From Streptomyces canus (lineage in GTDB: Bacteria > Actinomycetota > Actinomycetes > Streptomycetales > Streptomycetaceae): a stretch of 64,000 nucleotides of DNA. Positions 37,630-62,908 of this stretch are shown here, piece after piece. The stretch is from contig NZ_JAUSYQ010000002.1 in assembly GCF_030816965.1 (NCBI RefSeq), forward strand, positions 6,376,001-6,440,000, read 5' to 3'. The translations under genes were made by a program, and so were the position numbers. The notes beneath the pieces were generated by a model. That model saw only the letters and a program-made list of their open reading frames with translations. It did no database searches and was not told where the DNA came from. Position 1 is the first letter of the stretch. Each line of letters begins with the position of its first letter.

Positions 37630-37641
37630 CTACGCGCGTTA
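37630..37641. promoter_or_regulatory. Nucleoside-regulon palindrome upstream of bmpA (10/12 match)
   Basis: CTACGCGCGTTA shares its first ten bases with CTACGCGCGTAG found before add and deoC. It lies about 105 bases before the bmpA start and 1 base over a possible -10 (TACGAT at 37640-37645). Inferred operator of an unidentified regulator. Confidence 0.55.
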
Positions 37642-37745
37642 CGATGCCGCGAAGCCAACGCCGCAGGGGCGTACAGGCCCGGGCACTGGCATGGTGCTCA
37701 CATGAAGCGCCGACAAGGCGCTCAGGTCAGGTGAAGGAGCCTCCC

Positions 37746-38804
37746 GTGCGCCGGGTAGCCAAGCTTTCCGCTGCGTGTATCGCCACCGCAGCTCTCGCAC
37801 TGACTGCCACTGCCTGTGGCAGCACCTCCTCCGAGGACGACAGCTCCTCGTCCGCCTCCGCGGGCAGCGGCAAGGGCGGCATCAAGATCGGCCTCGCCTA
37901 CGACGTCGGCGGCCGTGGTGACCGTTCCTTCAACGACTCCGCCGCGCGCGGTGCCGATAAGGCCCAGAAGGAGTTCAGCGGCTCCCTCAAGGAGCTGACC
38001 GCCAAGAGCTCCGACACCGAGGCCGACCGCGAGCAGCGCCTGACCGACCTCGCCGACGCGGGCTACAACCCGATCGTCGCCGTCGGCTTCTCCTACGCCA
38101 CCTCGGTCGACAAGGTCGCCGCCAAGTACCCGAAGGTCAGCTTCGGCCTCATCGACGCGGTCGCGAACGCCAAGAACGTCGACAGCATCACGTTCACCGA
38201 GGAACAGGGTTCCTACCTGGCCGGTGTCGCCGCGGCGCTGAAGACCAAGAAGGATCACGTCGGCTTCATCGGCGGCGTGGACACCCCGCTGATCAAGAAG
38301 TTCGAGGCGGGCTACGCCCAGGGCGTCAAGGACACCAACCCCAAGGTCAAGGTCGACGTCCAGTACCTGACCCATGGCTCGGACTTCTCCGGTTTCGCCG
38401 ACCCCGCCAAGGGCAAGGAAGCCGCGTCCGGCATGCTCGACAACGGCGCTGACGTGATCTACGCCGCGGCCGGCTCCTCCGGCAACGGCTCGATCGAGGC
38501 CGTCTCCGGCGTCAAGGGCGCCTGGGCCATCGGCGTGGACTCGGACCAGTACAACATCCCGGGTCTGGCCAAGTTCAAGAACTCGATCCTGACCTCGATG
38601 GTCAAGAACGTCGACGTCGGCGTCTACGACTTCATCAAGTCCGTCCACGAGGGCAAGCCGCTGACCGGCAACCAGCTCTACTCGCTCGCCAAGGGCGGTG
38701 TCGCCCTGTCCACCAGCGGTGGCTTCATCGACGACATCCAGCCCAAGCTGGACGAGGCGAAGAAGAAGATCGTCGACGGCACCATCAAGGTCAAGACCAG
38801 CTGA
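37746..38804 (+). CDS. bmpA: BmpA/PnrA-type nucleoside-binding lipoprotein
   Basis: A 352-residue lipoprotein. A basic-hydrophobic leader ends in the lipobox with C24 (LALTATAC), then a Ser-rich linker. The ligand domain has IKIGLAYDVGGRGDRSFNDS, VGFSYATSVDKVA, FTEEQGSYLAGVAAAL and GFIGGVDTPLIKKFEAGY, the pattern of PnrA-like purine-nucleoside receptors. AAGGAG at 37734-37739 sets the GTG start. It delivers nucleosides to the ABC transporter encoded immediately downstream after a terminator and a second operator-like palindrome. As the receptor it is normally made in excess, which fits its separate promoter. Confidence 0.92.
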   Translation: MRRVAKLSAACIATAALALTATACGSTSSEDDSSSSASAGSGKGGIKIGLAYDVGGRGDRSFNDSAARGADKAQKEFSGSLKELTAKSSDTEADREQRLTDLADAGYNPIVAVGFSYATSVDKVAAKYPKVSFGLIDAVANAKNVDSITFTEEQGSYLAGVAAALKTKKDHVGFIGGVDTPLIKKFEAGYAQGVKDTNPKVKVDVQYLTHGSDFSGFADPAKGKEAASGMLDNGADVIYAAAGSSGNGSIEAVSGVKGAWAIGVDSDQYNIPGLAKFKNSILTSMVKNVDVGVYDFIKSVHEGKPLTGNQLYSLAKGGVALSTSGGFIDDIQPKLDEAKKKIVDGTIKVKTS

Positions 38805-38828
38805 CCTGACGGTTCCCGCCGGAACCCG

Positions 38829-38867
38829 GGCTCGACGAGGGGGCCTCGACAACCCCCTCGTCGAGCC
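38829..38867. terminator. Perfect 15-bp hairpin after bmpA
   Basis: GGCTCGACGAGGGGG (38829-38843) is exactly complementary to 38853-38867, loop 9 bases, 25 bases past the bmpA stop. It likely ends or attenuates bmpA transcription, giving the receptor a higher dose than the transporter core. Confidence 0.75.
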
Positions 38868-38884
38868 ATAACAATGTGTCAACT

Positions 38885-38896
38885 CTACGCGTGTAG
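38885..38896. promoter_or_regulatory. Nucleoside-regulon palindrome before the ABC-cdd-deoA operon (11/12)
   Basis: CTACGCGTGTAG differs at one base from CTACGCGCGTAG. It lies between the bmpA terminator and the ABC ATPase gene, 75 bases before its start, where the operon promoter is expected. Confidence 0.7.
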
Positions 38897-38971
38897 CACG
38901 GAGTTGCCGCGCTAGCGTCACCGACGCCTGCCCTCCCCTACGCAGCCCCTTTTCCCCGAGGAGAGTGCGCC

Positions 38972-40552
38972 ATCAACGCGTCCAGCCCTCCCGCTGCCGT
39001 CGAACTGCGCGGCATCACCAAGCGATTCCCCGGCGTCGTGGCCAACAAGGACATCGACATCACCGTCCGCACGGGCACCGTGCACGCCCTGTGCGGTGAG
39101 AACGGTGCCGGCAAGTCCACCCTGATGAAGATCCTCTACGGCATGCAGCAGCCGGACGAGGGCACCATCACGGTGAACGGCGAGACGGTCACCTTCCACA
39201 CCCCCGCCGACGCCATCGCCCGTGGCATCGGCATGGTGCACCAGCACTTCATGCTCGCCGACAACCTCACGGTCCTGGAGAACGTCGTCCTGGGCGCGGA
39301 GAAGCTGTACGGCATCGGCGCCAAGGCCCGCGCGAAGATCAGGGAGATCTCCGACGCGTACAGCCTGAACGTACGGCCCGACGTCCTCCTTGAGGAGCTC
39401 GGCGTCGCCGACCGCCAGCGCGTGGAGATCCTCAAGGTCCTCTACCGCGGCGCCAAGACCCTGATCCTCGACGAGCCCACCGCCGTCCTCGTGCCGCAGG
39501 AGGTCGACGCCCTCTTCGACAACCTGCGCGAGCTCAAGGCCGAGGGCCTCACCGTCATCTTCATCTCGCACAAGCTCGGCGAGGTCCTGTCGGTGGCCGA
39601 CGAGATCACCGTCATCCGCCGCGGCACCACCGTCGGCACGGTCGAACCCGCCGGCACCACCTCCAAGCAGCTCGCCGAGCTGATGGTCGGGAGCGAACTG
39701 CCCACCCCGGAGACCGAGGAGTCCACGGTCACCGGCGTCCCGCTGCTGAAGCTGGACGGTCTGCGCCTGGCCCAGACCGACCTCGACGGCATCGAGCGGA
39801 TCATCCTCGACGACATCTCCTTCACCATCCACAAGGGCGAGGTCCTCGGGATCGCCGGCGTGGAGGGCAACGGCCAGTCCGAACTGGTCGAGGCCATCAT
39901 GGGCATCCGCGACCCCGACTCCGGCACGGTCACCCTCGACGGCACCGACATCTCCCACATCCCCACCCGCCGCCGCCGCGAGGCCGGCGTCGGCTACATC
40001 CCCGAGGACCGCCACCGCCACGGCCTGCTCCTCGAAGCCCCGCTGTGGGAGAACCGCATCCTCGGCCATGTCACCGAGAAGCCCAACTCCCGCGGCCAGC
40101 TGCTCGACATCAAGGCCGCCCGCACCGACACCGAGCGCATCATCAAGGCGTACGACGTCCGCACCCCCGGCATCGACGTCACCGCCGCCTCCCTGTCCGG
40201 CGGCAACCAGCAGAAGCTGATCGTCGGCCGCGAGATGAGCCACGCGCCCAAGCTGCTCATCGCCGCCCACCCCACCCGCGGTGTGGACGTCGGCGCGCAG
40301 GCCGCGATCTGGGACCACATCCGCGAGGCCCGCCGTGAGGGCCTGGCCGTGCTGCTGATCTCCGCCGACCTGGACGAGCTCATCGGCCTGTCCGACACCC
40401 TGCGGGTGATGTACCGCGGCCGACTGGTCGCCGACGCCGACCCCGCCACCATCACCCCCGAGGAGCTGGGCTCCGCCATGACCGGTGCGGCCACCGGCCA
40501 CCTGGAGCACGCAGAGGACTCCGCCGAGGACCACGAGGACGACGCCCGATGA
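38972..40552 (+). CDS. Nucleoside ABC transporter ATPase (NupO/RbsA-like), apparent ATC start
   Basis: A 526-residue duplicated ABC ATPase. Walker A of the first half is GENGAGKST. The second half carries GVEGNGQSE and SLSGGNQQKLIVGREM. The frame is open back to a stop at 38894-38896, but there is no ATG, GTG or TTG before 39038. GAGGAG at 38958-38963 is 8 bases before ATC at 38972, and the residues after it (NASSPPAAVELRGITKRFPG) include the first strand and A-loop aromatic of an ABC ATPase. Starting at GTG 39038 would remove them. ATC initiation is therefore the best reading. It energises uptake with the two permeases that follow. Confidence 0.85.
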   Translation: MNASSPPAAVELRGITKRFPGVVANKDIDITVRTGTVHALCGENGAGKSTLMKILYGMQQPDEGTITVNGETVTFHTPADAIARGIGMVHQHFMLADNLTVLENVVLGAEKLYGIGAKARAKIREISDAYSLNVRPDVLLEELGVADRQRVEILKVLYRGAKTLILDEPTAVLVPQEVDALFDNLRELKAEGLTVIFISHKLGEVLSVADEITVIRRGTTVGTVEPAGTTSKQLAELMVGSELPTPETEESTVTGVPLLKLDGLRLAQTDLDGIERIILDDISFTIHKGEVLGIAGVEGNGQSELVEAIMGIRDPDSGTVTLDGTDISHIPTRRRREAGVGYIPEDRHRHGLLLEAPLWENRILGHVTEKPNSRGQLLDIKAARTDTERIIKAYDVRTPGIDVTAASLSGGNQQKLIVGREMSHAPKLLIAAHPTRGVDVGAQAAIWDHIREARREGLAVLLISADLDELIGLSDTLRVMYRGRLVADADPATITPEELGSAMTGAATGHLEHAEDSAEDHEDDAR

Positions 40553-41676
40553 ACAAGCTGACCCAACGCATCGACAAGGAGCGGCTGCTCCTCGGCATCG
40601 CGGCCCCGCTGCTTGCGCTCGTCGCCGCGCTCGTCGTCACCACCCTGGTGATCCTCGCGACCGGCAAGAACCCGGGCGCCGCCTTCAGCGACATGCTGAC
40701 CTACGGCTCCGCCAGCGACAGCCAGGTCTACATCCTCAACAAGGCGACGACGTACTACCTCGCGGGTGTCGCGGTGGCCATCGGCTTCCGCATGAACCTG
40801 TTCAACATCGGCGTCGACGGCCAGTACCGCATCGCCGCGTTCTTCGCCGCCGTCCTCGGCGGCGCGCTGACCACGCCCGGCTGGATCTCCATCCCGCTGA
40901 TCATCCTGTGCGCCATGGGCACCGGCGCCGTATGGGCGGGCATCGCGGGCATCCTCAAGGTGACCCGCGGCGTCAGCGAGGTCATCTCGACGATCATGCT
41001 CAACGCGATCGCCACCGCGATCATCGCCTACCTGCTCCAGCCCGGAAAGCTCGCCGAGCTCCAGGCCGGCGGCACGGTCGTCTCCACCAAGCCGCTGCCG
41101 TCGTCCTCGTACTTCTTCCAGATCGACACCGGCGCCGCGGGCGAACTGTGGGGCTTCATCGTCATCGCCGTACTCGTCGGCATCGCGTACTGGTTCGTGC
41201 TCGGCCGCACCCGCTTCGGCTTCGACCTGCGCACCGTCGGCCAGTCCGAGAGCGCCGCTGCCGCGAGCGGTGTCTCGGTCAAGAAGATGATCGCCACCAG
41301 CATGCTCATCTCGGGCGCGGTGGCCGGCCTGATCGGCATGCCGACGCTGCTCAACGACAGCCACCAGTTCAGCAACGACTTCCCCGTAGGCATCGGCTTC
41401 ACCGGTATCGCCATCGCCCTGCTCGGCCGCAACAACCCGGTCGGCATCGCGCTGGGCGCGCTGCTGTGGGGCTTCCTGGAGCGCACCACCAACCACCTGG
41501 AGTTCGAGGGCTACGACAAGGAGATCCTCGGCGTGATCCAGGGCGTCATTGTCCTGTCCGTCGTCATCGCCTACGAAGTCGTACGCCGTTACGGACTCAA
41601 GCGCCAGCAGCAGCGGGTCGGCGCCGAGCTCGCCGCCCAGGCCGCAGCCCCGACCCAGAAGCAGGAGGTGGCGTGA
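40549..41676 (+). CDS. Nucleoside ABC transporter permease 1
   Basis: A 375-residue permease of the BPD_transp_2/NupP type with about ten hydrophobic spans. GVAVAIGFRMNLFNIGVDGQ, then GGVSEVISTIMLN-like and FGFDLRTVGQSESAAAASGV, and a signature GIGFTGIAIALLGRNNPVGI are typical of nucleoside permeases of the RbsC superfamily. The ATG at 40549 overlaps the ATPase stop (ATGA), so it is translationally coupled. The C-terminus is charged and cytoplasmic. It pairs with the permease encoded next, whose ATG overlaps this stop by one base. Confidence 0.9.
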   Translation: MNKLTQRIDKERLLLGIAAPLLALVAALVVTTLVILATGKNPGAAFSDMLTYGSASDSQVYILNKATTYYLAGVAVAIGFRMNLFNIGVDGQYRIAAFFAAVLGGALTTPGWISIPLIILCAMGTGAVWAGIAGILKVTRGVSEVISTIMLNAIATAIIAYLLQPGKLAELQAGGTVVSTKPLPSSSYFFQIDTGAAGELWGFIVIAVLVGIAYWFVLGRTRFGFDLRTVGQSESAAAASGVSVKKMIATSMLISGAVAGLIGMPTLLNDSHQFSNDFPVGIGFTGIAIALLGRNNPVGIALGALLWGFLERTTNHLEFEGYDKEILGVIQGVIVLSVVIAYEVVRRYGLKRQQQRVGAELAAQAAAPTQKQEVA

Positions 41677-42959
41677 TGACTGCCACGACGACCCACACGC
41701 CGCCCCCCGCGGCACCCAAGGCGGACACCGCCACCCGGTCGGGCCGCTCGCTCGGCCAGATCCTCATGATCGTCGCCGGTGCGCTGCTGCTCGTCGCAGC
41801 GGTCCGCGTCATCTCCGGCTCCGACCAGCTCACCTCCGAGGGCCAGGTCTCCGCGGCGCTCAGCCTCGCCGTGCCGATCGGCCTCGCCGGTCTGGCCGGT
41901 CTGTGGTCCGAGCGGTCCGGCGTGGTCAACATCGGCCTCGAGGGCATGATGATCCTCGGCACCTTCGGCGCCGGCTGGATCGGCTGGCAGTCCAGCCCCT
42001 GGCTCGGCCTGCTGTGCGGCGTCGGCTTCGGCGTCCTGGGCGGCCTGCTGCACGCGGTCGCGACCGTCACCTTCGGAGTCGACCACATCGTCTCCGGTGT
42101 CGCGATCAACCTCCTCGCCCTCGGCACCACCCAGTACCTCGCCAAGCTCTTCTTCGTGGACGGCAAGGCGGCGGAAGCGGGCGGCAACCCCAAGCAGTCC
42201 CCGCCCGTGGACTCACTGCCCAGCTTCGACGTCCCGGGCCTGTCCAGCGGTCTGCACTCCGTCGAGAACCACCACTGGTTCCTGATCTCCGACATCGCGG
42301 GCATCCTCGGCGGCCTGTTCACCAACCTGTCCATCGTGACGGTCCTGGCGTTCGTGCTGTTCGTCGGCAGCTGGTGGCTGCTGTGGCGCACCCCGTTCGG
42401 CCTGCGGCTGCGCTCCTGCGGCGAGAACCCGATCGCCGCCGAGTCCCTCGGCGTCAACGTCTACAAGTACAAGTACATGGCCGTGGCGGTCTCCGGCGGC
42501 CTCGCCGGCCTCGGCGGCGCCTTCCTGGCCCTGGTCACCTCGCACACCTACCTGGAGGGCCAGACCGGCGGACGCGGCTACATCGGCCTCGCCGCCATGA
42601 TCTTCGGCAACTGGCGGCCCGGCGGACTCGCCATGGGCGCGGGCCTGTTCGGCTACTCCGACGCACTCCAGCTGCGCAACGGCGGCGAGACCGTCCACGC
42701 GCTGCTGCTCCTGCTGTTCGTGCTGCTCCTGGCGATGGCCGGCTGGAAGCTGTACAAGAAGGCGCACTGGCAGGGCGGCATCAGCCTCATGGTGGCCGCG
42801 GGCGTCCTGGTCTGGTACCTGGTCACCGACGAGGTACCGAGCGACTTCGTGGGCGCCACCCCGTACGTCGTCACGCTGCTGGTGCTGTCGCTGTCCGCGC
42901 AGCGCCTGCGGATGCCCAAGGCGGACGGCATGCGCTACCGGAAGGGCCAGGGCAAGTGA
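41676..42959 (+). CDS. Nucleoside ABC transporter permease 2
   Basis: A 427-residue permease of the same superfamily: VPIGLAGLAGLWSERSGVVN, then IGLEGMMILGTFGAGW, GVDHIVSGVAINLLALGTTQ, FGLRLRSCGENPIAAESLGV and RGYIGLAAMIFGNWRPGG. It is longer than permease 1 because of an N-terminal Thr/Pro-rich tail and an extra C-terminal helical segment. GGAGGTG precedes the ATG at 41676, which overlaps the upstream stop (TGATG). The stop overlaps the GTG of cdd, so transport and deamination are coupled in one operon. Confidence 0.9.
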   Translation: MTATTTHTPPPAAPKADTATRSGRSLGQILMIVAGALLLVAAVRVISGSDQLTSEGQVSAALSLAVPIGLAGLAGLWSERSGVVNIGLEGMMILGTFGAGWIGWQSSPWLGLLCGVGFGVLGGLLHAVATVTFGVDHIVSGVAINLLALGTTQYLAKLFFVDGKAAEAGGNPKQSPPVDSLPSFDVPGLSSGLHSVENHHWFLISDIAGILGGLFTNLSIVTVLAFVLFVGSWWLLWRTPFGLRLRSCGENPIAAESLGVNVYKYKYMAVAVSGGLAGLGGAFLALVTSHTYLEGQTGGRGYIGLAAMIFGNWRPGGLAMGAGLFGYSDALQLRNGGETVHALLLLLFVLLLAMAGWKLYKKAHWQGGISLMVAAGVLVWYLVTDEVPSDFVGATPYVVTLLVLSLSAQRLRMPKADGMRYRKGQGK

Positions 42960-43357
42960 CCCCGCCGTCCGACGTCGACTGGGAGTCGCTGCGCGAGCGG
43001 GCCCGGGACGCCATGTCCCGGGCGTACGCCCCGTACTCCGGCTACCCGGTCGGCGTCGCCGCCCTGGTCGACGACGGCCGTACGGTCACCGGCTGCAACG
43101 TCGAGAACGCCTCGTACGGCCTCGGCCTGTGCGCCGAGTGCGGTCTGGTCTCGGAGCTGCAGAACACCGGCGGCGGCCGTCTCACCCACTTCACGTGCGT
43201 GGACGGCCGGGGCGAGATCCTCGTCCCCTGCGGCCGCTGCCGGCAACTGCTGTACGAGTTCGGCGGCCCGGACCTGCTCCTGGAGACCCCGGCGGGCATC
43301 CTGCCGCTGTCGGAGATGCTGCCGCAGGCCTTCGGGCCGGGGCATCTCACCAAGTAA
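42956..43357 (+). CDS. cdd: Cytidine deaminase
   Basis: A 133-residue tetrameric-type cytidine deaminase. Zinc and catalytic motif GLCAECGLVSELQNTGGGRL has the Cys-Ala-Glu, and PCGRCRQLLYEF supplies the other two Cys ligands. It converts cytidine or deoxycytidine to uridine or deoxyuridine in the cytoplasm. The GTG at 42956 overlaps the permease stop (GTGA). Immediately downstream, deoA splits the pyrimidine nucleosides, so the operon imports and degrades nucleosides. Length and motif spacing are normal for the family. Confidence 0.95.
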   Translation: MTPPSDVDWESLRERARDAMSRAYAPYSGYPVGVAALVDDGRTVTGCNVENASYGLGLCAECGLVSELQNTGGGRLTHFTCVDGRGEILVPCGRCRQLLYEFGGPDLLLETPAGILPLSEMLPQAFGPGHLTK

Positions 43358-43378
43358 TTCCCGGAAGGAAAGCCCTGC

Positions 43379-44662
43379 ATGGCCATGGACGCCATCTCCG
43401 TCATCCGCACCAAGCGCGACCGCGGTGAACTCAGCGACGAGCAGATCGACTGGGTCATCGACGCGTACACCCGCGGGGAGGTCGCCGACGAGCAGATGTC
43501 CGCGCTCGCGATGGCGATCCTGCTCAACGGCATGAACCGCCGCGAGATCGCCCGCTGGACCGCCGCGATGATCGCCTCCGGCGAGCGCATGGACTTCTCG
43601 TCCCTGTCCCGGCCGACGGCCGACAAGCACTCCACGGGCGGCGTCGGCGACAAGATCACGCTCCCGCTGGCGCCCCTGGTGGCGGCCTGCGGCGCGGCCG
43701 TCCCCCAGCTCTCGGGCCGCGGCCTCGGCCACACCGGCGGCACGCTGGACAAGCTGGAGTCGATCCCGGGCTGGCGCGCGCTGCTGTCCAACGAGGAGAT
43801 GCTGAACGTCCTCGACACCACCGGCGCGGTGATCTGCGCGGCGGGCGACGGTCTGGCTCCGGCCGACAAGAAGCTGTACGCCCTGCGTGACGTCACGGGG
43901 ACGGTCGAGGCCATCCCCCTGATCGCCTCCTCGATCATGTCGAAGAAGATCGCGGAGGGGACGGGCTCGCTGGTCCTGGACGTGAAGGTCGGCACCGGCG
44001 CCTTCATGAAGACCATCGAGGACGCCCGGGAACTGGCGTCCACGATGGTGAGCCTGGGCACGGACCACGGCGTGAAGACGGTCGCGCTCCTGACGGACAT
44101 GAGCACGCCCCTCGGCCTGACGGCGGGCAACGCGCTGGAGGTACGCGAGTCGGTCGAGGTCCTGGCGGGCGGCGGACCCTCGGACGTGGTGGAACTGACC
44201 CTCGCGCTGGCCCGCGAGATGCTCGACGCGGCGGGCGTCCGCGACGCCGACCCCGCGAAGGCCCTGGCCGACGGCTCGGCGATGGACGTGTGGCGCCGGA
44301 TGATCGCGGCGCAGGGCGGCGACCCGGACGCGGAGCTGCCGGTGGCCCGCGAACAGCACGTGATCAAGGCGGGAGCCTCGGGCGTCCTGACCCGACTCGA
44401 CGCCTACGGCATCGGCGTCGCCGCCTGGCGCCTCGGCGCGGGGCGTGCCCGCAAGGAGGACCCGGTCCAGGCGGGCGCGGGCGTGGAACTGCACGCCAAG
44501 CCGGGCGACACGGTGACCGAGGGCCAGCCCCTGCTGACCCTGCACACCGACACCCCGGAGCGCTTCGAGTACGCCCTCCAGGCGGTCGAGGGTTCCTACG
44601 ACATCGGGGCGACGGGGACGGCCTTCACGGCGTCCCCGGTGGTGCTGGAACGTATCGCCTGA
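43379..44662 (+). CDS. deoA: Thymidine (pyrimidine nucleoside) phosphorylase
   Basis: A 427-residue enzyme: VIRTKRDRGELSDEQIDWVI, DKHSTGGVGDKITLPLAPLV, the signature SGRGLGHTGGTLDKLESIPG and SIMSKKIAEGTGSLVLDVKV. It phosphorolyses thymidine or uridine to the base and (deoxy)ribose 1-phosphate. GGAAGGAAAG precedes the ATG at 43379 by a normal distance. It is the last gene of the operon headed by the palindrome at 38885. The product enters the deoxyribose-phosphate route, whose aldolase, deoC, is 17 kb away but carries the same palindrome. Confidence 0.95.
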   Translation: MAMDAISVIRTKRDRGELSDEQIDWVIDAYTRGEVADEQMSALAMAILLNGMNRREIARWTAAMIASGERMDFSSLSRPTADKHSTGGVGDKITLPLAPLVAACGAAVPQLSGRGLGHTGGTLDKLESIPGWRALLSNEEMLNVLDTTGAVICAAGDGLAPADKKLYALRDVTGTVEAIPLIASSIMSKKIAEGTGSLVLDVKVGTGAFMKTIEDARELASTMVSLGTDHGVKTVALLTDMSTPLGLTAGNALEVRESVEVLAGGGPSDVVELTLALAREMLDAAGVRDADPAKALADGSAMDVWRRMIAAQGGDPDAELPVAREQHVIKAGASGVLTRLDAYGIGVAAWRLGAGRARKEDPVQAGAGVELHAKPGDTVTEGQPLLTLHTDTPERFEYALQAVEGSYDIGATGTAFTASPVVLERIA

Positions 44663-45342: not shown

Positions 45343-45343
45343 G

Positions 45344-49333: not shown

Positions 49334-49396
49334 GCTTCGAAGTTACGTACGACTCCGCTCATCCGTCCAATGCATGGATTCGCCATAATCGTTCCC

Positions 49397-50347
49397 ATGG
49401 AGCATCAGCAGAGGTCACAGGCGCGCCTGTCACCATCCAGTGACACAGAAGACATGGTGATGGTGCTGGCCCCGCGGCTCGCCTACTTCGCCGGTGTGGC
49501 CCGCACCGAGCACGTCACCCGCGCCGCGCAGGAGATGGACGTACCCCAGTCGACCCTCTCGCGCGCCATGGTCCGCCTGGAACAGGACCTCGGCGTCGAC
49601 CTGTTCGCCAGGATCGGCCGCACGGTCTCCCTCACCCCCGCGGGCCGCACCTTCCTCGCCTCCGCCGAACGCGCCCTCGCCGAGATCCAGCGCGCCGCGG
49701 ACGAGGTCCGCGCGGACGCCGACCCGGCCACCGGCAAGGTCGCCTTCGGCTTCCTGCACACCATGGGCTCGGAAACGGTCCCCGGCCTCATCCGGGCCTT
49801 CCGCGCCGACCATCCCCGTGTCCGCTTCAGCCTGGTCCAGAACTACGGCGAGGCGATGATCGAACGCCTGCGGGCGGGGGAGCTGGACCTGTGTCTGACC
49901 TCCCCGGTCCCGGACGCCCCCGACCTCGTGGCCCGCCGCCTCGACGAACAGAAGCTACGGCTCGTGGTCCCCGCCGATCACCCCCTCGCGGCCCGCAGGC
50001 GGGTGCGCCTCGCCGAGGCCGCCGAGGAGTCCTTCGTCACCCTGGAGCCCGGCTACGGCCTGCGCCGCATCACGGACGACCTCTGCCAGGAGGCCGGCTT
50101 CAAGCCGAGGATCGCCTTCGAGGGAGAGGAGGCGGAGACGCTGAGAGGGCTGGTGGCGGCAGGACTGGGCGTCGCCCTCCTGCCCCCGCCGGCCTTCCCC
50201 CGCCCAGGGGTCGCGGAACTGACGGTCACGGCCCCACGCGCGGCCCGCGAGATCGGAGTGGCCTGGCTGGACGGCCACCCGGACACACCCCCGGTGGCCG
50301 CCTTCAAGAAGTTCCTGCTGTCGAGAAGGGGGAACCTGCTGCCCTGA
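49397..50347 (+). CDS. LysR family transcriptional regulator
   Basis: A 316-residue LysR regulator from the ATG at 49397. Its helix-turn-helix is HVTRAAQEMDVPQSTLSRAM and VRLEQDLGVDLFARIGRTVS (about 40-75), and the effector domain has KVAFGFLHTMGSETVPGLIR. An ATG nine codons upstream is possible but would reach the MFS promoter. It likely controls the divergent MFS exporter in response to its substrate. Its stop lies 2 bases before the convergent hydrolase stop. Confidence 0.88.
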   Translation: MEHQQRSQARLSPSSDTEDMVMVLAPRLAYFAGVARTEHVTRAAQEMDVPQSTLSRAMVRLEQDLGVDLFARIGRTVSLTPAGRTFLASAERALAEIQRAADEVRADADPATGKVAFGFLHTMGSETVPGLIRAFRADHPRVRFSLVQNYGEAMIERLRAGELDLCLTSPVPDAPDLVARRLDEQKLRLVVPADHPLAARRRVRLAEAAEESFVTLEPGYGLRRITDDLCQEAGFKPRIAFEGEEAETLRGLVAAGLGVALLPPPAFPRPGVAELTVTAPRAAREIGVAWLDGHPDTPPVAAFKKFLLSRRGNLLP

Positions 50348-50348
50348 C

Positions 50349-51189: not shown

Positions 51190-51201
51190 CTACGCGCGTA
51201 G
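51190..51201. promoter_or_regulatory. Nucleoside-regulon palindrome upstream of add
   Basis: CTACGCGCGTAG is a perfect 12-bp palindrome 16 bases before the adenosine deaminase ATG. An identical site precedes deoC and near matches precede bmpA and the ABC operon. It probably overlaps the add promoter or leader. Confidence 0.75.
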
Positions 51202-51217: not shown

Positions 51218-52390
51218 ATGACGAGCAAGACTGACCGGATGGGGAACCCCCCGAGCTCGGACCAGATCCGCCGGGCACCCAAGGTTCTGCTGCACGATCA
51301 CCTCGACGGCGGGCTGCGCCCCGGCACGATCGTCGACCTCGCCCGGGACGCCGGTTACTCCGGGCTCCCCGAGACCGACGCGGACCGACTGGGCGTCTGG
51401 TTCCGCGAAGCCGCCGACTCCGGTTCGCTGGAGCGGTACTTGGAGACCTTCTCGCACACCGTCGGCGTCATGCAGACCCGTGACGCGCTGGTGCGGGTGG
51501 CCGCCGAGTGCGCCGAGGACCTCGCCGAGGACGGTGTCGTCTACGCCGAGGTGCGCTACGCCCCCGAGCAGCACCTGGAGAAGGGCCTGACCCTCGAAGA
51601 GGTCGTCGAGGCCGTCAACGAGGGCTTCCGGGAAGGGGAGCGCAGGGCCAGGGCGAACGGCCACCGCATCCGCGTGGGCGCCCTGCTCACCGCGATGCGG
51701 CACGCGGCCCGTGCCCTGGAGATCGCCGAACTCGCCAACCGTTACCGCGACCTGGCGGGCGGCGGTGTCGTCGGCTTTGACATCGCGGGCGCGGAGGCCG
51801 GTTACCCGCCCACCCGCCACCTCGACGCCTTCGAGTACCTGAAGCGCGAGAACAACCACTTCACCATCCACGCCGGAGAGGCCTTCGGGCTGCCGTCCAT
51901 CTGGCAGGCCCTGCAGTGGTGCGGCGCCGACCGGCTCGGGCACGGCGTGCGCATCATCGACGACATCCAGGTCCACGAGGACGGCACGGTCAAGCTCGGG
52001 CGGCTCGCCTCCTACGTCCGGGACAAGCGGATCCCGCTGGAGCTGTGCCCCAGCTCCAATCTGCAGACCGGGGCGGCCTCGTCGTACGCCGAGCACCCGA
52101 TCGGGCTCCTGCGGCGCCTGCACTTCCGGGCGACCGTGAACACCGACAACCGGCTGATGTCCGGCACCAGTATGAGCCGGGAATTCGAGCACCTCGTCGA
52201 CGCGTTCGGCTATACGCTCGACGATCTCCAGTGGTTCTCCGTCAATGCGATGAAATCAGCGTTCATTCCGTTCGATGAAAGACTCGCGATGATCAATGAT
52301 GTCATCAAGCCCGGATATGCCGAGCTGAAGTCCGAATGGCTGTTCCGGCAGACCGCTTCCACCAGCGGTTCTGTGGCCGAGGAGAGCTGA
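51218..52390 (+). CDS. add: Adenosine deaminase
   Basis: A 390-residue zinc enzyme: [12 protein letters not shown] gives the zinc ligands H26 and H28. [15 protein letters not shown], the His in [11 protein letters not shown], and [18 protein letters not shown] complete the site. It deaminates adenosine and deoxyadenosine to inosine forms. The regulatory palindrome 16 bases upstream links it to uptake and phosphorolysis genes. Length is normal; a short N-terminal extension ([12 protein letters not shown]) precedes the fold. A hairpin at 52410-52448 follows the stop. Confidence 0.95.
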
Positions 52391-52948: not shown

Positions 52949-52965
52949 TACGTGCGTAGGGGGTG

Positions 52966-56923: not shown

Positions 56924-56939
56924 GTGACAGGTCTGTGAC
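56924..56939. promoter_or_regulatory. AfsQ1 binding site between afsQ1 and sigQ
   Basis: GTGAC at 56924-56928, six bases, then GTGAC at 56935-56939 reproduce the known AfsQ1 consensus GTnAC-n6-GTnAC. It sits 108 bases before the sigQ start, the promoter AfsQ1 is reported to activate. Confidence 0.8.
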
Positions 56940-57046
56940 AGTCGGCGGACACGGCCATGAAGGTGCGAGGGCAAGCTTCTCGGCACGGGCAAGGCAGCAC
57001 CGCCCGAGCAGACCGAACACCGGAAGTCCACGACGGGGGGCGCGAG

Positions 57047-57786
57047 ATGAACACGCTGCACAGCATCAGCACCAGCGCAGTGGTCACGCGGCTGCACGAC
57101 GTGACCCGGGGTTCCGAGAAGTCCGGTGCCGTGAGCGGGCGGGGGTGCGCTCGCGGCACCGGGCGTCAGCACACCGCGTACATGTCGGTGGTTGACACCT
57201 TCACGGGGGAATCGCACGGGGGATCGTCGTACAGGGAGGACACGGGGGAGCGTCGTTCGCTGTCGGAGGCGGAGTTCACCGCCTACGTCCAGGAGCGCCG
57301 CGCCTCCCTGTACGCCACCGCGTACCACCTGACCGGGGACCGCTTCGAGGCCGAGGACCTGCTGCAGAGCGCGCTGTTCTCGACGTACAGGGCATGGGAC
57401 CGGATCAGCGACAAGGCCGCGGTCGGGGGCTACCTCCGCCGCACCATGACGAACCTGCACATCAGCGCGTGGCGCCGCCGCAAGCTGAACGAATACGACC
57501 GACCGAGGAACTGCCGGAGACGCCCGGCGACACGGACGCGATGCGCGGCACGGAGCTGCGCGCGGTCCTGTGGCAGGCGCTGGCCCGGCTGCCCGAACTC
57601 CAGCGGACGATGCTGGTCCTCCGTTACTACGAGGGCCGCACCGACCCGGAGATCGCGGAGATCCTCGACATCAGTGTCGGCACGGTGAAGTCCAGCATCT
57701 GGCGGTCGCTCCGCCGGCTGCGCGAGGACGAGGTCCTCAGCTTCGGCCGTGACGAGGAGAACGCCTTCGGGGAGCTCGTCGCCTGA
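57047..57786 (+). pseudogene. sigQ: ECF sigma factor SigQ, frameshifted in this sequence
   Basis: The 5' frame encodes MNTLHSISTSAVVTRLHDV through region 2 (LYATAYHLTGDRFEAEDLLQ, then SALFSTYRAWDRI) up to WRRRKLNEY at 57496. The rest of the sigma factor continues in a different frame: PTEELPETPGDTDAMRG, LPELQRTMLVLRYYEGRTDP, EIAEILDISVGTVKSSIWRS, ending FGELVA at 57786. A one-base loss or two-base gain in CGACCGACCGA (about 57496-57505) explains the break. An alternative start is the ATG at 57182. It is the AfsQ-controlled sigma factor of the afsQ locus. Either a real mutation or a sequence error; the unmodified reading would lack region 4. Confidence 0.85.
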
Positions 57787-57897
57787 GGGTGGGGGGAGCA
57801 AGGAACGGGGGGCCAGGGGTGCCGGCTGGGGGGCCGGTACCCGGGGGGATCAACGGGGGTCACGGGGGACCCACGGGGACAGCGGGGAAGCACCAAG

Positions 57898-57938
57898 AAG
57901 CGGGACCGGAGGGCCGGGGGGTCCGTCCGGTCCCGCTT
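57898..57938. terminator. 13-bp hairpin after sigQ
   Basis: AAGCGGGACCGGA (57898-57910) pairs with TCCGGTCCCGCTT (57926-57938), loop 15 bases, extended by CACCA/TGGTG flanks (57891-57895 and 57939-57943). It separates sigQ from the convergent lipoprotein gene. Confidence 0.7.
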
Positions 57939-57948
57939 TGGTGTGTGC

Positions 57949-58275
57949 TCAGCGGTGGAGGTCCATGAGGATCGCCTCGCCGGGCGAGTCACCCACCGCG
58001 ATCGCCTCGGCGGGATCCACTCCGTCGACCGCGTACGCGCCGGTCGTCCCCTCAGCGATCGTGACCCCGGGATCGCCCGGAGTGTCGTCGCACTCGGCGA
58101 TCGTGGCGGTGCCGAGCCTCTCGCCCACGGTGAAGCCGGTCTTCTCCGTGGGCAGATAGTCCCGGTTCTCGAACGTCACCACCCCCGCGCACGAGGACGC
58201 GGCCTCGCCGCCCGACGTACAGCCGGCGACGGCCGCGAGGAGAGCGACCGCGAGGATCCGGAGGGCAGTTGTCAT
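57949..58275 (-). CDS. Small lipoprotein of unknown function
   Basis: A 108-residue lipoprotein: ILAVALLAAVAGC with C19 as the lipid site, a short Ser/Gly linker, and a compact domain (SSCAGVVTFENRDYLPTEKT, then ATIAECDDTPGDP) with two Cys that may pair. GGAAGGA lies about 5 bases before the ATG at 58275. Related small lipoproteins of unknown function occur in Streptomyces. It is convergent with sigQ. Confidence 0.7.
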   Translation of the reverse strand: MTTALRILAVALLAAVAGCTSGGEAASSCAGVVTFENRDYLPTEKTGFTVGERLGTATIAECDDTPGDPGVTIAEGTTGAYAVDGVDPAEAIAVGDSPGEAILMDLHR

Positions 58276-58347
58276 CGGGTTCCTTCCGAGGTGACCGTTT
58301 TCCGGTCCTACGACGGAGAAGGCGCCGAAGTCGTTCGGTCTGGCCGC

Positions 58348-58983
58348 TCAGGCGGCCGGAGTCGCCGCCGGCCGGTGCCCCGCTGCCGCGACGGTCAGGC
58401 GGCTCAGGGCCTCGTCCTTGTCGCAGGGGTGGGCGCCGAGGGCGGTCTGGCGGGCGACGATCGAGCGCTCCAGGCGCATCAGGCGCCAGCCGCGGCGCAG
58501 CAGGAACGGCACCGACTTGCGGCCCTCGCGCAGATCCCGAAGGAACCGGCGGCGGAACGTCCGCACCGGACCCCGGCTCAGGCACAGCGCGTCGGCCAGC
58601 ACGCCGAGCTCCCGGCAGCGGGTGACGATCTCGGCGGCGAAGATGCCCTCCGCGATGAACAGCGGGGTCCGGCCCATGTCGACCGCCTCCTCGCCGGTGC
58701 GGGCGCTCAGCGAGATGTCGTAGACCGGGATCTTCGTACGGCCCGTGCGGCACAGTTCCACGATCGCCGCCACCGCGGTGTCCGCGTCCCAGGACCCGGG
58801 GTGGTCCCAGTCGATGTCGGAGCTCCCCGCCACCAGCGGCAGCGTCGGGTCGTCGCCCTCCTTGTAGAAGTCGTCGAGCCTGAGAACCGGAAGACCGGAC
58901 CGGGCCGAGAGAAGGGACTTGCCGGAGCCGGAGGGGCCGCAGAGCAGCACGACTCGCGTCGGTATGGGCGGTTGGGAACTCAC
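58348..58983 (-). CDS. Uridine kinase-like P-loop protein
   Basis: A 211-residue P-loop NTPase. The Walker A motif is VVLLCGPSGSGKSLL at about residues 10-25, followed by PVLRLDDFYKEGDDPTLPLV and DWDHPGSWD, the nucleoside-kinase pattern of uridine kinases. RFLRDLREGRKSVPF resembles the lid. The GTG at 58983 fits the family start; an upstream GTG would extend it without similarity. It may phosphorylate uridine or cytidine, or another small substrate such as a coenzyme precursor. It lies near nucleoside genes but has no copy of the palindrome. Confidence 0.75.
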   Translation of the reverse strand: MSSQPPIPTRVVLLCGPSGSGKSLLSARSGLPVLRLDDFYKEGDDPTLPLVAGSSDIDWDHPGSWDADTAVAAIVELCRTGRTKIPVYDISLSARTGEEAVDMGRTPLFIAEGIFAAEIVTRCRELGVLADALCLSRGPVRTFRRRFLRDLREGRKSVPFLLRRGWRLMRLERSIVARQTALGAHPCDKDEALSRLTVAAAGHRPAATPAA

Positions 58984-59113
58984 GGGACACCAGTGTGAGG
59001 CATTCACCTGCTGTTCATCGACCCCGCGGGCGGGCTTTGAAGCGTGCGTCACACCTCAACCACCCTTCGTGTCGACGCGATGACCCAGTGCACGGAAAAG
59101 GTGGCGGAAACAC

Positions 59114-59509
59114 ATGGCACGACATGCGAACCCGACAGTCGGGCGCACGCTCATCGCCCTCGCCACCGCGGGTGTCGCACTCGGCGCAGGCGCCAAAGTG
59201 GCCGCCGCGGACACCGAGCCGGTCGCCGGCATGGTGGGCGCCCGGCCGGCCTCGCTGGGCAACATCGACCCGCGGGCCGGGGTGCAGGTGCCCACCGGCT
59301 CCGTCGGCTACGTCACCGGCCCGGTCGCCGGTCTCGAGCCGAAGCCGCTGGCGGGGACCGGGGTGGACCCGTTGGACAACGGGGTGGCGACGCAGCTCGG
59401 CGACTCCCAGCCGATTGCTTCACGGGCGCTTTGGGGGCCCGTTGCGCAGGCGCAGTCGATCGGGAGCATGCCGGTGGTGGGGCAGGTGGCGGGCTTGCCG
59501 AACAACTGA
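59114..59509 (+). CDS. Small secreted protein with Pro/Gly/Val-rich mature part
   Basis: A 131-residue protein with signal peptide RTLIALATAGVALGAGAKVA, cleavage near AAA|DTEP. The mature part has repeated V-A-G and P-V-G steps (GPVAGLEPKPLAGTG) without known motifs. The ATG at 59114 follows GGCGGAAA. Such proteins occur often in Streptomyces; a role in wall or hyphal surface is only a guess. A hairpin separates it from the convergent aldehyde dehydrogenase-type gene. Confidence 0.65.
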   Translation: MARHANPTVGRTLIALATAGVALGAGAKVAAADTEPVAGMVGARPASLGNIDPRAGVQVPTGSVGYVTGPVAGLEPKPLAGTGVDPLDNGVATQLGDSQPIASRALWGPVAQAQSIGSMPVVGQVAGLPNN

Positions 59510-59525
59510 TCCCGGTACGACGGCA

Positions 59526-59569
59526 GGAGAACCGCGTCCCCCCCGGACGGAGGGGAGGCGCGGCTCTCC
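59526..59569. terminator. Hairpin between secreted protein and aldehyde dehydrogenase-type genes
   Basis: GGAGAACCGCG (59526-59536) pairs with CGCGGCTCTCC (59559-59569) with one mismatch, plus an inner CCCC/GGGG stem. It terminates the rightward gene and perhaps the deoC operon. Confidence 0.55.
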
Positions 59570-59586
59570 GGTATCGCGGCCCGTTG

Positions 59587-60483
59587 TCAGTACGACGAGC
59601 CCGACGCCCCCAGGGAACCCGTCGGGTGCCAGACCGTCTTCGTCTCCAGGAAGGCCGTCAGGCGGTCGATGCCCGGAGTCGCCGACCAGTTGTCCACAGG
59701 CTGTGGACGCAGGACGCGCTTCAGGTTGTCCGCGGCCGCGATCTCCAGCTCCTTCGCGAGAACCTCGTCCGCGCCCGCCAGGTCGATCGCGTTGACGTCC
59801 TGGTGGGACGCCAGGGGAGTCGCGATCTCCGCGGTGCGGCCCGAGAGGACGTTGACGACGCCTCCGGGGACGTCGGAGGTGGCCAGCACCTCGCCCAGGG
59901 ACAGCGCCGGGAGCGGGGACTTCTCGCTCGCCACCACGATCGCCGTGTTGCCCGTGGCGATCACCGGAGCCACCACCGAGACCAGGCCCAGGAACGACGA
60001 CTCCTGCGGGGCCAGGACGGCCACCACGCCCGTCGGCTCGGGGGAGGACAGGTTGAAGTACGGGCCCGCCACCGGGTTGCCGCCGCCCACCACCTGGGCG
60101 ATCTTGTCGGTCCAGCCCGCGTACCAGACCCAGCGGTCGATCGTCGCCTCGACCTGCTCGGCCGCCCTGGACTTGGACAGACCTTCGGCGTCGGCCACCT
60201 CGTGGACGAACTGCGCCTTGCGGCCCTCCAGCATCTCCGCGACGCGGTAGAGGACCTGGCCGCGGTTGTACGCCGTCGCGCCGGACCAGCCGCCGAACGC
60301 CTTGCGCGCGGCCACGACCGCGTCACGGGCGTCCTTGCGGCTCGACTGCGGCGCGTTCGCCAGCCACCTGCCCTTGGAGTCGGTCACTTCGTACACCCGG
60401 CCGCTTTCGGAGCGGGGGAACTTGCCCCCGACGTAGAGCTTGTAGGTCTTGAAGACGCTCAAACGGTCATTGCGCTCAGACAT
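59587..60483 (-). CDS. Aldehyde dehydrogenase-like half protein lacking the catalytic region
   Basis: A 298-residue protein. It begins like an aldehyde dehydrogenase (YKLYVGGKFPRSESGRVYEV) and carries the NAD-binding region (VATGNTAIVVASEKSPLPAL), but then ends PGIDRLTAFLETKTVWHPTG. The central Cys/Glu catalytic segment (ELGGxxxN and GQxCC) of a normal about 480-residue enzyme is absent. The ATG at 60483 overlaps the upstream ALDH stop by 8 bases, so both are made together. It could be a regulatory or heteromer partner, or a decayed enzyme. No frameshift is visible, so the shortening is clean. Confidence 0.72.
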   Translation of the reverse strand: MSERNDRLSVFKTYKLYVGGKFPRSESGRVYEVTDSKGRWLANAPQSSRKDARDAVVAARKAFGGWSGATAYNRGQVLYRVAEMLEGRKAQFVHEVADAEGLSKSRAAEQVEATIDRWVWYAGWTDKIAQVVGGGNPVAGPYFNLSSPEPTGVVAVLAPQESSFLGLVSVVAPVIATGNTAIVVASEKSPLPALSLGEVLATSDVPGGVVNVLSGRTAEIATPLASHQDVNAIDLAGADEVLAKELEIAAADNLKRVLRPQPVDNWSATPGIDRLTAFLETKTVWHPTGSLGASGSSY

Positions 60484-61912
60484 CGAGGTACGCCTCCAGG
60501 CCGTGGCGACCGCCCTCGCGGCCGAAGCCCGACTCCTTGTAGCCGCCGAACGGCGACGTCGGGTCGAACTTGTTGAACGTGTTGGACCAGACGACCCCGG
60601 CCCGGAGTTTGTTCGCCACCGCCAGGATCCGCGATCCCTTCTCCGTCCAGATGCCTGCCGAGAGGCCGTACTGGGTGTTGTTGGCCTTGGCGACGGCCTC
60701 GTCCGGGGTGCGGAAGGTGAGGACCGACAGCACCGGGCCGAAGATCTCGTCGCGGGCGATGGTGTGCGCCTGGGTGACGTTCGTGAAGAGCGTCGGGGCG
60801 AACCAGTAGCCGGAGGAGGGGAGTTCGCACTCCGGGGACCAGGGCTCGGCACCCTCGGCCGCGCCCTTCTCGACGAGCGAGGTGATCCGCGACAGCTGCT
60901 CGGCGGAGTTGATCGCGCCGATGTCGGTGTTCTTGTCGAGCGGGTCGCCGAGGCGGAGGGTGGACAGGCGGCGCTTGAGGGAGTCCAGCAGCTCGTCCTG
61001 GATCGACTCCTGGACGAGAAGGCGGGAGCCCGCGCAGCAGACCTGGCCCTGGTTGAAGAAGATGCCGTTGACGATCCCCTCCACCGCCTGGTCGATCGGG
61101 GCGTCGTCGAAGACGATGTTGGCGCCCTTGCCGCCCAGTTCGAGCGTGACCTTCTTGCGGGTGCCCGCGACGGTCCGCGCGATCTCCTTGCCCACGGCGG
61201 TGGAGCCGGTGAAGGCCACCTTGTCGACGTCCGGGTGCGCGACGAGCGCGGCGCCCGTGTCGCCGTAGCCCGGAAGGATGTTGACGACACCCCTGGGCAG
61301 GCCGGCCTGACGGCAGATGTCCGCGAAGAACAGCGCCGACAGGGGGGTCGTCTCCGCAGGCTTCAGGACGACGGTGTTGCCGGTCGCCAGCGCCGGGGCG
61401 ATCTTCCACGCCAGCATCAGGAGCGGGAAGTTCCACGGGATGACCTGGCCGGCCACGCCGAGGGGCTTCGGGGAGGCACCGAACCCGGCGTGCTCCAGCT
61501 TGTCGGCCCAGCCCGCGTAGTAGAAGAAGTGCGCGGCGACCAGGGGGAGGTCGGCGTCGCGGGTCTCCTTGATGGGCTTGCCGTTGTCCAGCGTCTCCAG
61601 GACGGCGAGCTCGCGGCTGCGCTCCTGGATGATCCGGGCGATGCGGAACAGGTACTTGGCGCGCTCGGGGCCGGGCAGCGCCGACCACTTCTCGAAGGCC
61701 TTGCGGGCGGCCTTCACCGCGCGGTCCACGTCCTCGGAACCGGCCTGGGCGACCTCGGAGAGGACCTCCTCGGTGGACGGCGAGACGGTCTTGAAGACCT
61801 TGCCGTCGGCCGCGTCCACGAACTCGCCGTCGATGAACAGGCCGTAGGACGGCGCGATGTCGACGACCGAGCGGGACTCGGGTGCGGGTGCGTAATCGAA
61901 TGCCGATGCCAT
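60476..61912 (-). CDS. Aldehyde dehydrogenase in deoC operon
   Basis: A 478-residue NAD(P)-dependent aldehyde dehydrogenase. QVIPWNFPLLMLAWKIAPAL is the substrate-coenzyme region, ELGGKGANIVF carries the catalytic Glu motif, and FFNQGQVCCAGSR carries the catalytic Cys. It probably oxidises acetaldehyde released by DeoC to acetate. The ATG at 61912 is 5 bases after the deoC stop, so the two are coupled. Size is normal for the family. The truncated relative follows, overlapping by 8 bases. Confidence 0.92.
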   Translation of the reverse strand: MASAFDYAPAPESRSVVDIAPSYGLFIDGEFVDAADGKVFKTVSPSTEEVLSEVAQAGSEDVDRAVKAARKAFEKWSALPGPERAKYLFRIARIIQERSRELAVLETLDNGKPIKETRDADLPLVAAHFFYYAGWADKLEHAGFGASPKPLGVAGQVIPWNFPLLMLAWKIAPALATGNTVVLKPAETTPLSALFFADICRQAGLPRGVVNILPGYGDTGAALVAHPDVDKVAFTGSTAVGKEIARTVAGTRKKVTLELGGKGANIVFDDAPIDQAVEGIVNGIFFNQGQVCCAGSRLLVQESIQDELLDSLKRRLSTLRLGDPLDKNTDIGAINSAEQLSRITSLVEKGAAEGAEPWSPECELPSSGYWFAPTLFTNVTQAHTIARDEIFGPVLSVLTFRTPDEAVAKANNTQYGLSAGIWTEKGSRILAVANKLRAGVVWSNTFNKFDPTSPFGGYKESGFGREGGRHGLEAYLDV

Positions 61913-61917
61913 GGTGA

Positions 61918-62877
61918 TCAGTCCACCGTCACGTAGTCGGGGCCGGAGTAGCGGCCGGTGGCCAGCTTCTGACGCTGCATCAGCAGGTCGTTCAGGAGCG
62001 AGGAGGCGCCGAAGCGGAACCAGTGGTTGTCCAGCCAGTCCTCGCCCGCGGTCTCGTTGACCACCACGAGAAACTTGATGGCGTCCTTGGACGTCCTGAT
62101 GCCGCCGGCCGGCTTCACGCCCACCTGGATGCCGGTCTGCGCACGGAAGTCACGCACCGCCTCCAGCATCAGAAGAGTGTTCGCCGGGGTGGCGTTCACC
62201 GCGACCTTGCCGGTGGACGTCTTGATGAAGTCCGCGCCGGCCAGCATGCCGAGCCAGCTCGCGCGGCGGATGTTGTCGTACGTCGACAGTTCGCCCGTCT
62301 CGAAGATGACCTTGAGCCGGGCGGCCGTACCGCAGACCTCGCGCACGGCGACGATCTCGTCGTACACCTTCATGTACCTGCCGGAGAGAAACGCCCCGCG
62401 GTCGATGACCATGTCGACCTCGTCGGCGCCCGCGGCCACCGCGTCGCGCACGTCGGCCAGCTTCACGTCGAGGGCGGCGCGGCCGGCCGGGAACGCGGTG
62501 GCCACGGAGGCGACCTTCACGCCGGAACCGGCCACGGCTTCCTTCGCCACGGGCACCATGTCGGGATAGACACAGACCGCGGCCGTGGCGGGGGTCGTCC
62601 GGTCGGTCGGATCGGGGCGGGCCGCCTTGGCGCCGAGCGCCCGGACCTTGCCCGGGGTGTCCGCGCCTTCCAGCGTCGTCAGGTCGACCATCGAGATGGC
62701 GAGGTCGATGGCGTACGCCTTGGCGGTCGTCTTGATGGAACGGGTACCGAGCGAGGCGGCACGCGCCTCCAGGCCGACCGCGTCCACGCCGGGCAGCCCG
62801 TGAAGGAACCGGCGCAGCGTGCTGTCGGACGCGGTCACGTCCGTGAGCGGGTGTGCGGCTGATGCAGTGGTGGGCAT
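61918..62877 (-). CDS. deoC: Deoxyribose-phosphate aldolase
   Basis: A 319-residue aldolase, long for the family (about 220-260) because of an extra N-terminal region of about 60 residues. GADFIKTSTGKVAVNATPAN carries the Schiff-base Lys, and VGVKPAGGIRTSKDAIKFLV the second catalytic Lys; VDMVIDRGAFLSG also matches. It splits deoxyribose 5-phosphate into acetaldehyde and glyceraldehyde 3-phosphate. The ATG at 62877 is chosen; a GTG at 62883 adds two residues. The palindrome CTACGCGCGTAG is 19 bases upstream. It leads an operon with two ALDH-type genes. Confidence 0.93.
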   Translation of the reverse strand: MPTTASAAHPLTDVTASDSTLRRFLHGLPGVDAVGLEARAASLGTRSIKTTAKAYAIDLAISMVDLTTLEGADTPGKVRALGAKAARPDPTDRTTPATAAVCVYPDMVPVAKEAVAGSGVKVASVATAFPAGRAALDVKLADVRDAVAAGADEVDMVIDRGAFLSGRYMKVYDEIVAVREVCGTAARLKVIFETGELSTYDNIRRASWLGMLAGADFIKTSTGKVAVNATPANTLLMLEAVRDFRAQTGIQVGVKPAGGIRTSKDAIKFLVVVNETAGEDWLDNHWFRFGASSLLNDLLMQRQKLATGRYSGPDYVTVD

Positions 62878-62896
62878 GGTCACCAGACGAGCATAT

Positions 62897-62908
62897 CTAC
62901 GCGCGTAG
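62897..62908. promoter_or_regulatory. Nucleoside-regulon palindrome upstream of deoC
   Basis: CTACGCGCGTAG is identical to the site before add (51190-51201). It lies 19 bases before the deoC ATG, in the place of the promoter or operator. The gap to the rightward PH-domain gene is shared. Confidence 0.75.

Follow-up and report, generated by a model that had tools for sequence, protein, structure and literature searches.

The palindrome CTACGC-GCGTAG recurs upstream of nucleoside genes in a 64-kb stretch of the Streptomyces canus genome (contig NZ_JAUSYQ010000002.1, positions 6,376,001 to 6,440,000), called here the window. It is well supported as a family-wide operator of nucleoside and nucleotide scavenging in Streptomycetaceae, and the regulon is larger than the initial annotation of the window had proposed. 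We are highly confident that the palindrome is the operator of one regulator. The whole is best explained, with good probability, by a dimeric repressor whose operator governs a nucleoside and nucleotide scavenging regulon, with RstP as the likeliest reader. RstP is the ortholog of SCO3943, a LacI-family protein encoded away from the sites, and its assignment, made by comparison of protein sequences, is tentative.

Distribution and conservation of the palindrome

All four sites claimed for the window were present. The exact palindrome CTACGCGCGTAG lies 16 bp from the start of add (51190..51201) and 19 bp from the start of deoC (62897..62908), neither copy being assigned to a strand; at deoC there is one base between it and a -10-like TATGCT read on the minus strand. 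On the plus strand, CTACGCGTGTAG, with one mismatch to CTACGCGCGTAG, stands 5' of the ABC-cdd-deoA operon (38885..38896), and CTACGCGCGTTA, with two mismatches, stands 5' of bmpA (37630..37641), where its 3' end overlaps the -10-like TACGAT at 37640-37645. The initial annotation noticed no other copy in the window; none exists with zero to one mismatch, and two extra matches appear at two mismatches (52948 and 54253). Because of these two matches, the bmpA site is insufficient by itself. It was validated by the conservation of the same 12-mer in relatives: CTACGCGCGTTA was identical 5' of bmpA in 15/15 loci from 14 genomes, the source genome included, with flanks that were far more variable. 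There was no bulk enrichment in the window, which contains 27 matches with up to three mismatches vs. a shuffled mean of 45.75.

The whole 10.66 Mb genome contains CTACGCGYGTAG at five places, and 5/5 exact copies are at nucleoside genes, as expected of a regulon whose near-exact site is shared by several promoters and rare elsewhere. Three copies are in the window (ABC-cdd-deoA, add and deoC), and four of the five fall within 28.5 kb. Another lies directly upstream of a purine-nucleoside phosphorylase (PNP, TIGR01698) gene, 3.3 kb past the window end (L018:7337-7348). The last is inside codons 3-6 of a second adenosine deaminase gene (L019:8265-8276); this codon-internal site was also seen in four further genomes, at loci that were all found via the site itself. 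Counted on the two strands, exact matches numbered 5 and 4, vs. 2 and 1 for a reversed control pattern.

One-mismatch copies occupy 31 places in the genome. A start was found within about 100 bp downstream of 13 of them, a proximity that depends on a simple gene caller, and the other 18 were intragenic or had no near start. Seven of the 13 promoter-proximal sites, a functional tally without a matched control set, lie 5' of genes for three enzymes of the 5'-nucleotidase family, a nucleobase permease of the NCS2 type, PurS, a PhoX-type phosphatase and an ExeM/NucH-related secreted protein (106.4 bits, below the cut-off of 300). The remaining six sites stand 5' of a 110-codon membrane-type frame, a 92-codon frame and genes for an M23 peptidase, an Opp-type permease, a nitrilase-like enzyme and an uncharacterised secreted protein. 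The nitrilase-like gene, with its site 31 bp upstream (L205:3077), was considered as a target and left out of the count because its family scores were under the cut-off. It is followed by aminotransferase-like and PucR-like frames (by eye), and the locus possibly serves pyrimidine breakdown.

In relatives, CTACGCGYGTAG was found in 41/41 genomes of the genus sample, with 3 to 7 copies per strand vs. 0 to 5 for the control pattern. It was also found in 61/61 family genomes from 17/17 genera, one of which (G195) has it only as CTACGCGTGTAG. In the class sample it occurred in 16/118 genomes, eight of them belonging to the genus. No nucleoside gene adjoined an out-of-family exact site in the six of eight genomes that were read (eight stretches and one in-between stretch, L069-L077; G130 and G083 were left out). 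The in-between stretch, L071, holds an add-like gene with 35% identity. Within the family, the sites recur as a block of about 30 kb in many of the listed genomes.

Frequent occurrence at unrelated genes, which the initial annotation had named as refuting, was tested in part on exact sites from relatives. Among 18 exact sites in Streptomyces, a subset mostly selected for lying off the main cluster, 12 were at nucleoside or nucleotidase genes, two at Opp-type transporters and four at other genes. In three of these genomes the site was 5' of 5'-nucleotidases (L080, L086 and L091). A further 39 sites from sister genera, again a subset of the exact sites in the listed genomes and classed by reading of the table, comprised 23 at add, PNP, deoC or the ABC operon, five at or beside purN-purH, four before uncharacterised secreted proteins and seven elsewhere. 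The purN-purH loci are L156, L161, L163, L165 and L170; L161 was profile-tested, the rest were read by eye, and at L163 nothing but the divergent neighbour is visible.

Some of these sites deserve separate mention. Four genomes of one genus (g94) carry the exact site close 5' of a secreted-protein gene (L159:3999, L160:3955, L164:4027 and L166:3956), and the two proteins that were profiled (L159 and L160) gave a sub-threshold ABC_transp_aux match. The exact 12-mer also stands in the same divergent Opp-type transporter promoter in G140 and G011 (L081:3064 and L088:2992). The Opp-type gene of the window genome differs from that gene (41% identical), so its site was not counted as the same target. 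At L169:4011 the exact 12-mer is centred in a long inverted repeat, which is possibly a terminator and not an operator.

Loci that were found through a site cannot show that the site is conserved, and promoters were therefore fetched around another gene, a DeoR-type regulator gene (L018:9574-10536) that lies 2.2 kb from the PNP site. In the resulting set, 21 PNP promoters included 14 exact sites, six with one mismatch and one with two mismatches, and 14 deoC promoters included five exact sites and nine with one mismatch. The mismatch sums were 8 for PNP and 9 for deoC, vs. means of 84.7 and 56.5 and minima of 63 and 45 for 119 palindromes with permuted half-sites. The regions came from genomes known to hold at least one site, and some had been stretched to reach a site, which leaves the deoC promoters less independent than those of PNP. 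This retention around a different gene, the location of all five exact genomic copies and the joint rise of the PNP, deoC and add transcripts in Streptomyces lividans (see below) give good support to the central idea of the initial annotation, that a shared operator defines a nucleoside regulon. The ABC ATPase gene was preceded by a site with zero to one mismatch in 24/24 loci from 22 genomes, a biased set, as most of these loci were fetched for an exact site. In the 15 one-mismatch sites of the PNP and deoC promoters, the central CpG was intact in 15/15; eight vary at the next base out, six at the third and one at the outermost.

Promoter geometry, target genes and expression

The position of the palindrome relative to predicted -10 elements differs between promoters. 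In 14/14 family deoC promoters the palindrome is followed by one base and TANNNT, which is TATGCT in 12/14 and otherwise TACGGT or TATGGT. The palindrome overlaps TACGAT or TAAGCT in the bmpA promoters, precedes TAGAGT or TAAAGT by about 4 bases in the add promoters, and precedes TAnnCT by about 10-11 bases in many PNP promoters. A steric block by a repressor fits this arrangement, because the site is between the -35 region and the start at a varying distance to the -10. From these positions we consider it probable that the operator acts in repression. It could also be read as a positive element, that is, a site for an activator or a component of a special promoter, since no strong -35 was evident by eye at several sites and the spacing to the -10 is readable as spacer-bound activation. 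The varying distance to the predicted -10 argues against this: the palindrome overlaps the -10 at bmpA and lies 1 bp from it at deoC, 4 bp from it at add and about 10 bp from it at many PNP promoters, a spread that fits steric block better than activation. A positive element is an unlikely explanation.

The genes behind the window sites were examined with family profiles. The bmpA gene (37746..38804, plus strand) encodes a basic-membrane-protein-type ABC substrate-binding lipoprotein. Its best model was NF047927 (99.8 bits vs. a cut-off of 400), and by this score the product is a relative of the model and not a named member. The ABC transporter that follows (38972..42959, plus strand) has an ATPase (38972-40552) and two permeases (40549-41676 and 41673-42959), all part of the ABC-cdd-deoA operon; its scores with the closest models, which describe ABC transporters of the B6, ribose and other sugar types, all stayed under the cut-offs. 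The operon continues on the same strand with cdd, for cytidine deaminase (42956..43357; NF004064, 184.2 bits, cut-off 74), and deoA, for thymidine phosphorylase (43379..44662; NF004490, 647.1 bits, cut-off 269). The add gene (51218..52390, plus strand) encodes adenosine deaminase (NF006847, 637.8 bits, cut-off 412). On the minus strand, deoC (61918..62877) encodes deoxyribose-phosphate aldolase (TIGR00126, 180.5 bits, cut-off 117.3) and probably shares an operon with the aldehyde dehydrogenase gene 5 bp downstream (60476..61912; PF00171), whose product would oxidise the acetaldehyde made by DeoC.

In the proposed model, a dimeric repressor would occupy CTACGC-GCGTAG over the promoters of the nucleoside and nucleotide scavenging genes. 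It would leave when nucleosides, or perhaps one of their products (for instance a pentose phosphate or purine), are plentiful. The cell would then jointly produce a secreted nuclease and 5'-nucleotidases, the importer of the Bmp-type ABC class, the enzymes Add, Cdd, DeoA and PNP, and the DeoC-aldehyde dehydrogenase pair. In the passages available of an RNA sequencing study of a cellulase-secreting Streptomyces lividans strain, SCO4917, SCO4914 and SCO4901 rose by +3.70, +3.24 and +2.16 log2 (PMC6302529, Table 3). These three genes correspond to PNP, deoC and add, respectively. The same comparison, as far as those passages go, also showed DNA-repair induction (PMC6302529), and this could release deoxynucleosides.

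Apart from the nucleoside genes, the window encodes a 1582-residue RHS-repeat protein (23729-28477, plus strand) with a putative type VII secretion signal domain and a polymorphic-toxin-like layout, preceded by a frame at 23118-23729 (plus strand).

Candidate readers of the operator

LacI-family sites are even palindromes with a central CpG. CTACGC-GCGTAG is of this shape, which is not exclusive to LacI, and its CpG is unchanging, so the LacI proteins were surveyed in two genomes, 21 in G195 and 30 in G189, of which several were not compared. The most conserved of those comparable was the reciprocal pair L245/L267, RstP, with 80% identity overall and 52/56 in the helix-turn-helix. PF00356, the LacI helix-turn-helix, scored 54.4 and 58.3 bits at these loci, vs. 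a cut-off of 27. Asp at LacI position 22 was found in RstP alone, among the 20 of 30 G189 proteins that were read and the 21 of G195 (two by eye). LacI residue 22, usually Arg, presumably contacts the base that is C, not G, in this operator. An RstP ortholog was detected in 29/31 family genomes and 0/11 outgroup genomes (E 1e-60). From the first helix to ALNGKG the sequence is unchanged in 29/29 orthologs, and the rest is down to 54% identical (148/274).

In the source genome rstP is at G000:C2:5057391-5058392, unlinked to the sites. The ArgR box printed for SCO3943/rstP matched 20/20 upstream of this gene, which identifies it as RstP. Published passages on ArgR report that it binds the rstP promoter in vitro, and their authors class rstP with nucleotide biosynthesis or regulation. 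The S. lividans passages give a fall of the SCO3943 transcript from 285 to 88 transcripts per million where SCO4917, SCO4914 and SCO4901 rise (PMC6302529). RstP could possibly be a family-wide master repressor of nucleic-acid scavenging, acting at the promoters of secreted nuclease and nucleotidase genes, of uptake and catabolic genes and of some genes for purine synthesis, with rstP itself under ArgR. If so, ArgR control of rstP would tie arginine and pyrimidine status to nucleoside use, and the DNA-contact helices of RstP would have been fixed together with the operator, even as identity in the sensing domain fell to 54%.

Several observations weigh against RstP, or against the regulon as drawn here. 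The argument from Asp22 to the C depends on the LacI recognition code. The 300 bp upstream of rstP contain no site within two mismatches, the best having at least three. RstP was not found in G008 (an assembly of 740 contigs) or in G187, both of which retain exact sites; two other genomes of the G187 genus carry RstP. Against the CytR model NF008269, RstP scored 102.5 and 111.7 bits, below the equivalog cut-off of 436. CytR identity had been considered as support, since CytR ranked first by NCBIfam, and was dropped: the ranking gives no support because the scores are far below the cut-off and CytR also came top for one of the nine LacI proteins used as controls. In five of seven outlying target sites of the window genome the difference is at the second base from outside, a tolerance that is not specially LacI-like, and confidence in RstP was lowered for this reason. 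One-mismatch matches are rarer in the whole genome than those of the reversed control (35 forward and 33 reverse vs. 66 and 62), so the signal is one of place and not of number. The available passages of the S. lividans study do not list the ABC-cdd-deoA genes in the tables of genes of partly known function (PMC6302529). In an argR mutant the published passages describe mixed effects, with DeoC protein lower and the nucleotidase SCO2015 and the adenosine deaminase SCO5662 higher.

Alternatively, the repressor that reads the site may be another unlinked regulator, either a second LacI protein or a member of a different family (TetR, GntR, MarR, IclR, Xre or other). Streptomycete genomes encode many regulators, the case for RstP is indirect and comes from the LacI proteins of two genomes, and some of the surveyed proteins were not properly compared. 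The unchanged central CpG fits LacI, and RstP and the motif have the same family boundary in the sampled genomes; both speak against this alternative. We regard another unlinked regulator as a real possibility, of somewhat less than even chance. One such protein, the MarR regulator SCO3205, was tried and rejected, as its printed consensus TTnAAnnnTCAA does not match the operator.

Contrary to the initial annotation, which saw the regulator encoded next to none of the sites, two regulator genes do adjoin sites. The LysR-type gene (49370-50347, plus strand) lies upstream of add, and the DeoR-type gene is 2.2 kb from the PNP site. The tests support neither as the operator binder. In several other genera the LysR-type gene is directly 5' of add with the site between them, which favours the LysR-type protein as the reader. 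However, its helix-turn-helix was only 34-40/57 identical in seven other-genus loci with the exact add site. Such a variable helix-turn-helix does not fit an unchanged operator, and the LysR-type protein was rejected as extremely improbable.

The DeoR-type protein would read the operator by sensing deoxyribose-5-phosphate, as E. coli DeoR does. We take its gene to be SCO4920. Besides its place near the PNP site, it has the Pfam domains DeoRC and HTH_DeoR, of which the former is a DeoR sensor domain, and it weakly matches a solved deoxyribose operon repressor (8.8e-08). Its gene is single copy (E 1e-60) in 21/21 tested non-Streptomyces family genomes, with 58-61/61 identical residues in the DNA-binding part. 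Against the E. coli DeoR model NF007961 it scored 73.9 bits, below the equivalog cut-off of 244. Its closest out-of-family relatives keep the recognition helix, yet they adjoin sugar transporters or other genes, and 13 stretches around them contain no 12-mer within one mismatch. Promoters of two relatives are instead rich in CGRTC words (9 vs. a shuffled mean of 1.9, and 8 vs. 1.7, by simple dinucleotide-block shuffles), which suggests a different site for the DeoR type; that of a third was marginal (5 vs. 1.7, 25/500 shuffles) and a fourth had none. The family's own deoR promoter showed no CGRTC excess (1 vs. 1.1), and its best match to the palindrome had at least three mismatches in 22/22 family genomes. 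In the available passages of a 2010 network study, the module centred on SCO4920 was enriched in sigma factors and not in nucleoside genes. After the neighbourhoods and promoters of its relatives were examined, the DeoR-type protein was demoted; it is disfavoured, and we think it improbable as the reader.

Further features of this DeoR group were noted. The relatives at L126-L128 and L131 adjoin sugar-type ABC transporters, and the CGRTC words upstream at L126 and L127 are dense, with a spacing of about 10 bp by eye. The promoter upstream of L018:9574 contains, across the 22 family genomes, a long conserved block around AACTTC, GCAAAC, CTGAAAGCAGACGGTC and GTTACTGTC.

Comparison with known systems

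Nucleic acids are recycled by streptomycetes as they develop, and these bacteria also produce nucleoside antibiotics. No nucleoside-use regulon was found described for them in the open-licence full-text literature, which omits most subscription papers. The regulon proposed here consists of a defined operator and roughly twelve likely targets, with RstP as its named candidate regulator. It also offers a case in which an operator and a recognition helix are nearly constant across 17 genera. As a catabolic regulon under a repressor, the kind of system is ordinary. Judged by searches of the open-licence full-text literature, the novelty lies in the motif, in how far it extends and in the candidate regulator.

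By the 20/20 ArgR box, the source-genome gene is the ortholog of RstP/SCO3943 of Streptomyces coelicolor, for which the published passages report no RstP operator or target. NupR of Bacillus thuringiensis, according to the passages available, is also a regulator of nucleoside transport but belongs to the GntR/HutC family (PMC9430930). UriR of Corynebacterium, the uridine regulator of model NF051853, is a LacI-family protein that controls nucleoside use in an actinobacterium, as is proposed here for RstP. Unlike UriR, RstP scored only 91-94 bits with this model, vs. a cut-off of 550. UriR has a local regulon. In E. coli, CytR and DeoR co-ordinately repress cdd, deoA, deoC, nucleoside phosphorylase and nucleoside uptake. 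The regulon proposed here would resemble these two in placing nucleoside uptake and catabolism under co-ordinate repressor control; it differs from them in the sequence of the operator and in its coverage, which also takes in adenosine deaminase, 5'-nucleotidases and purS.

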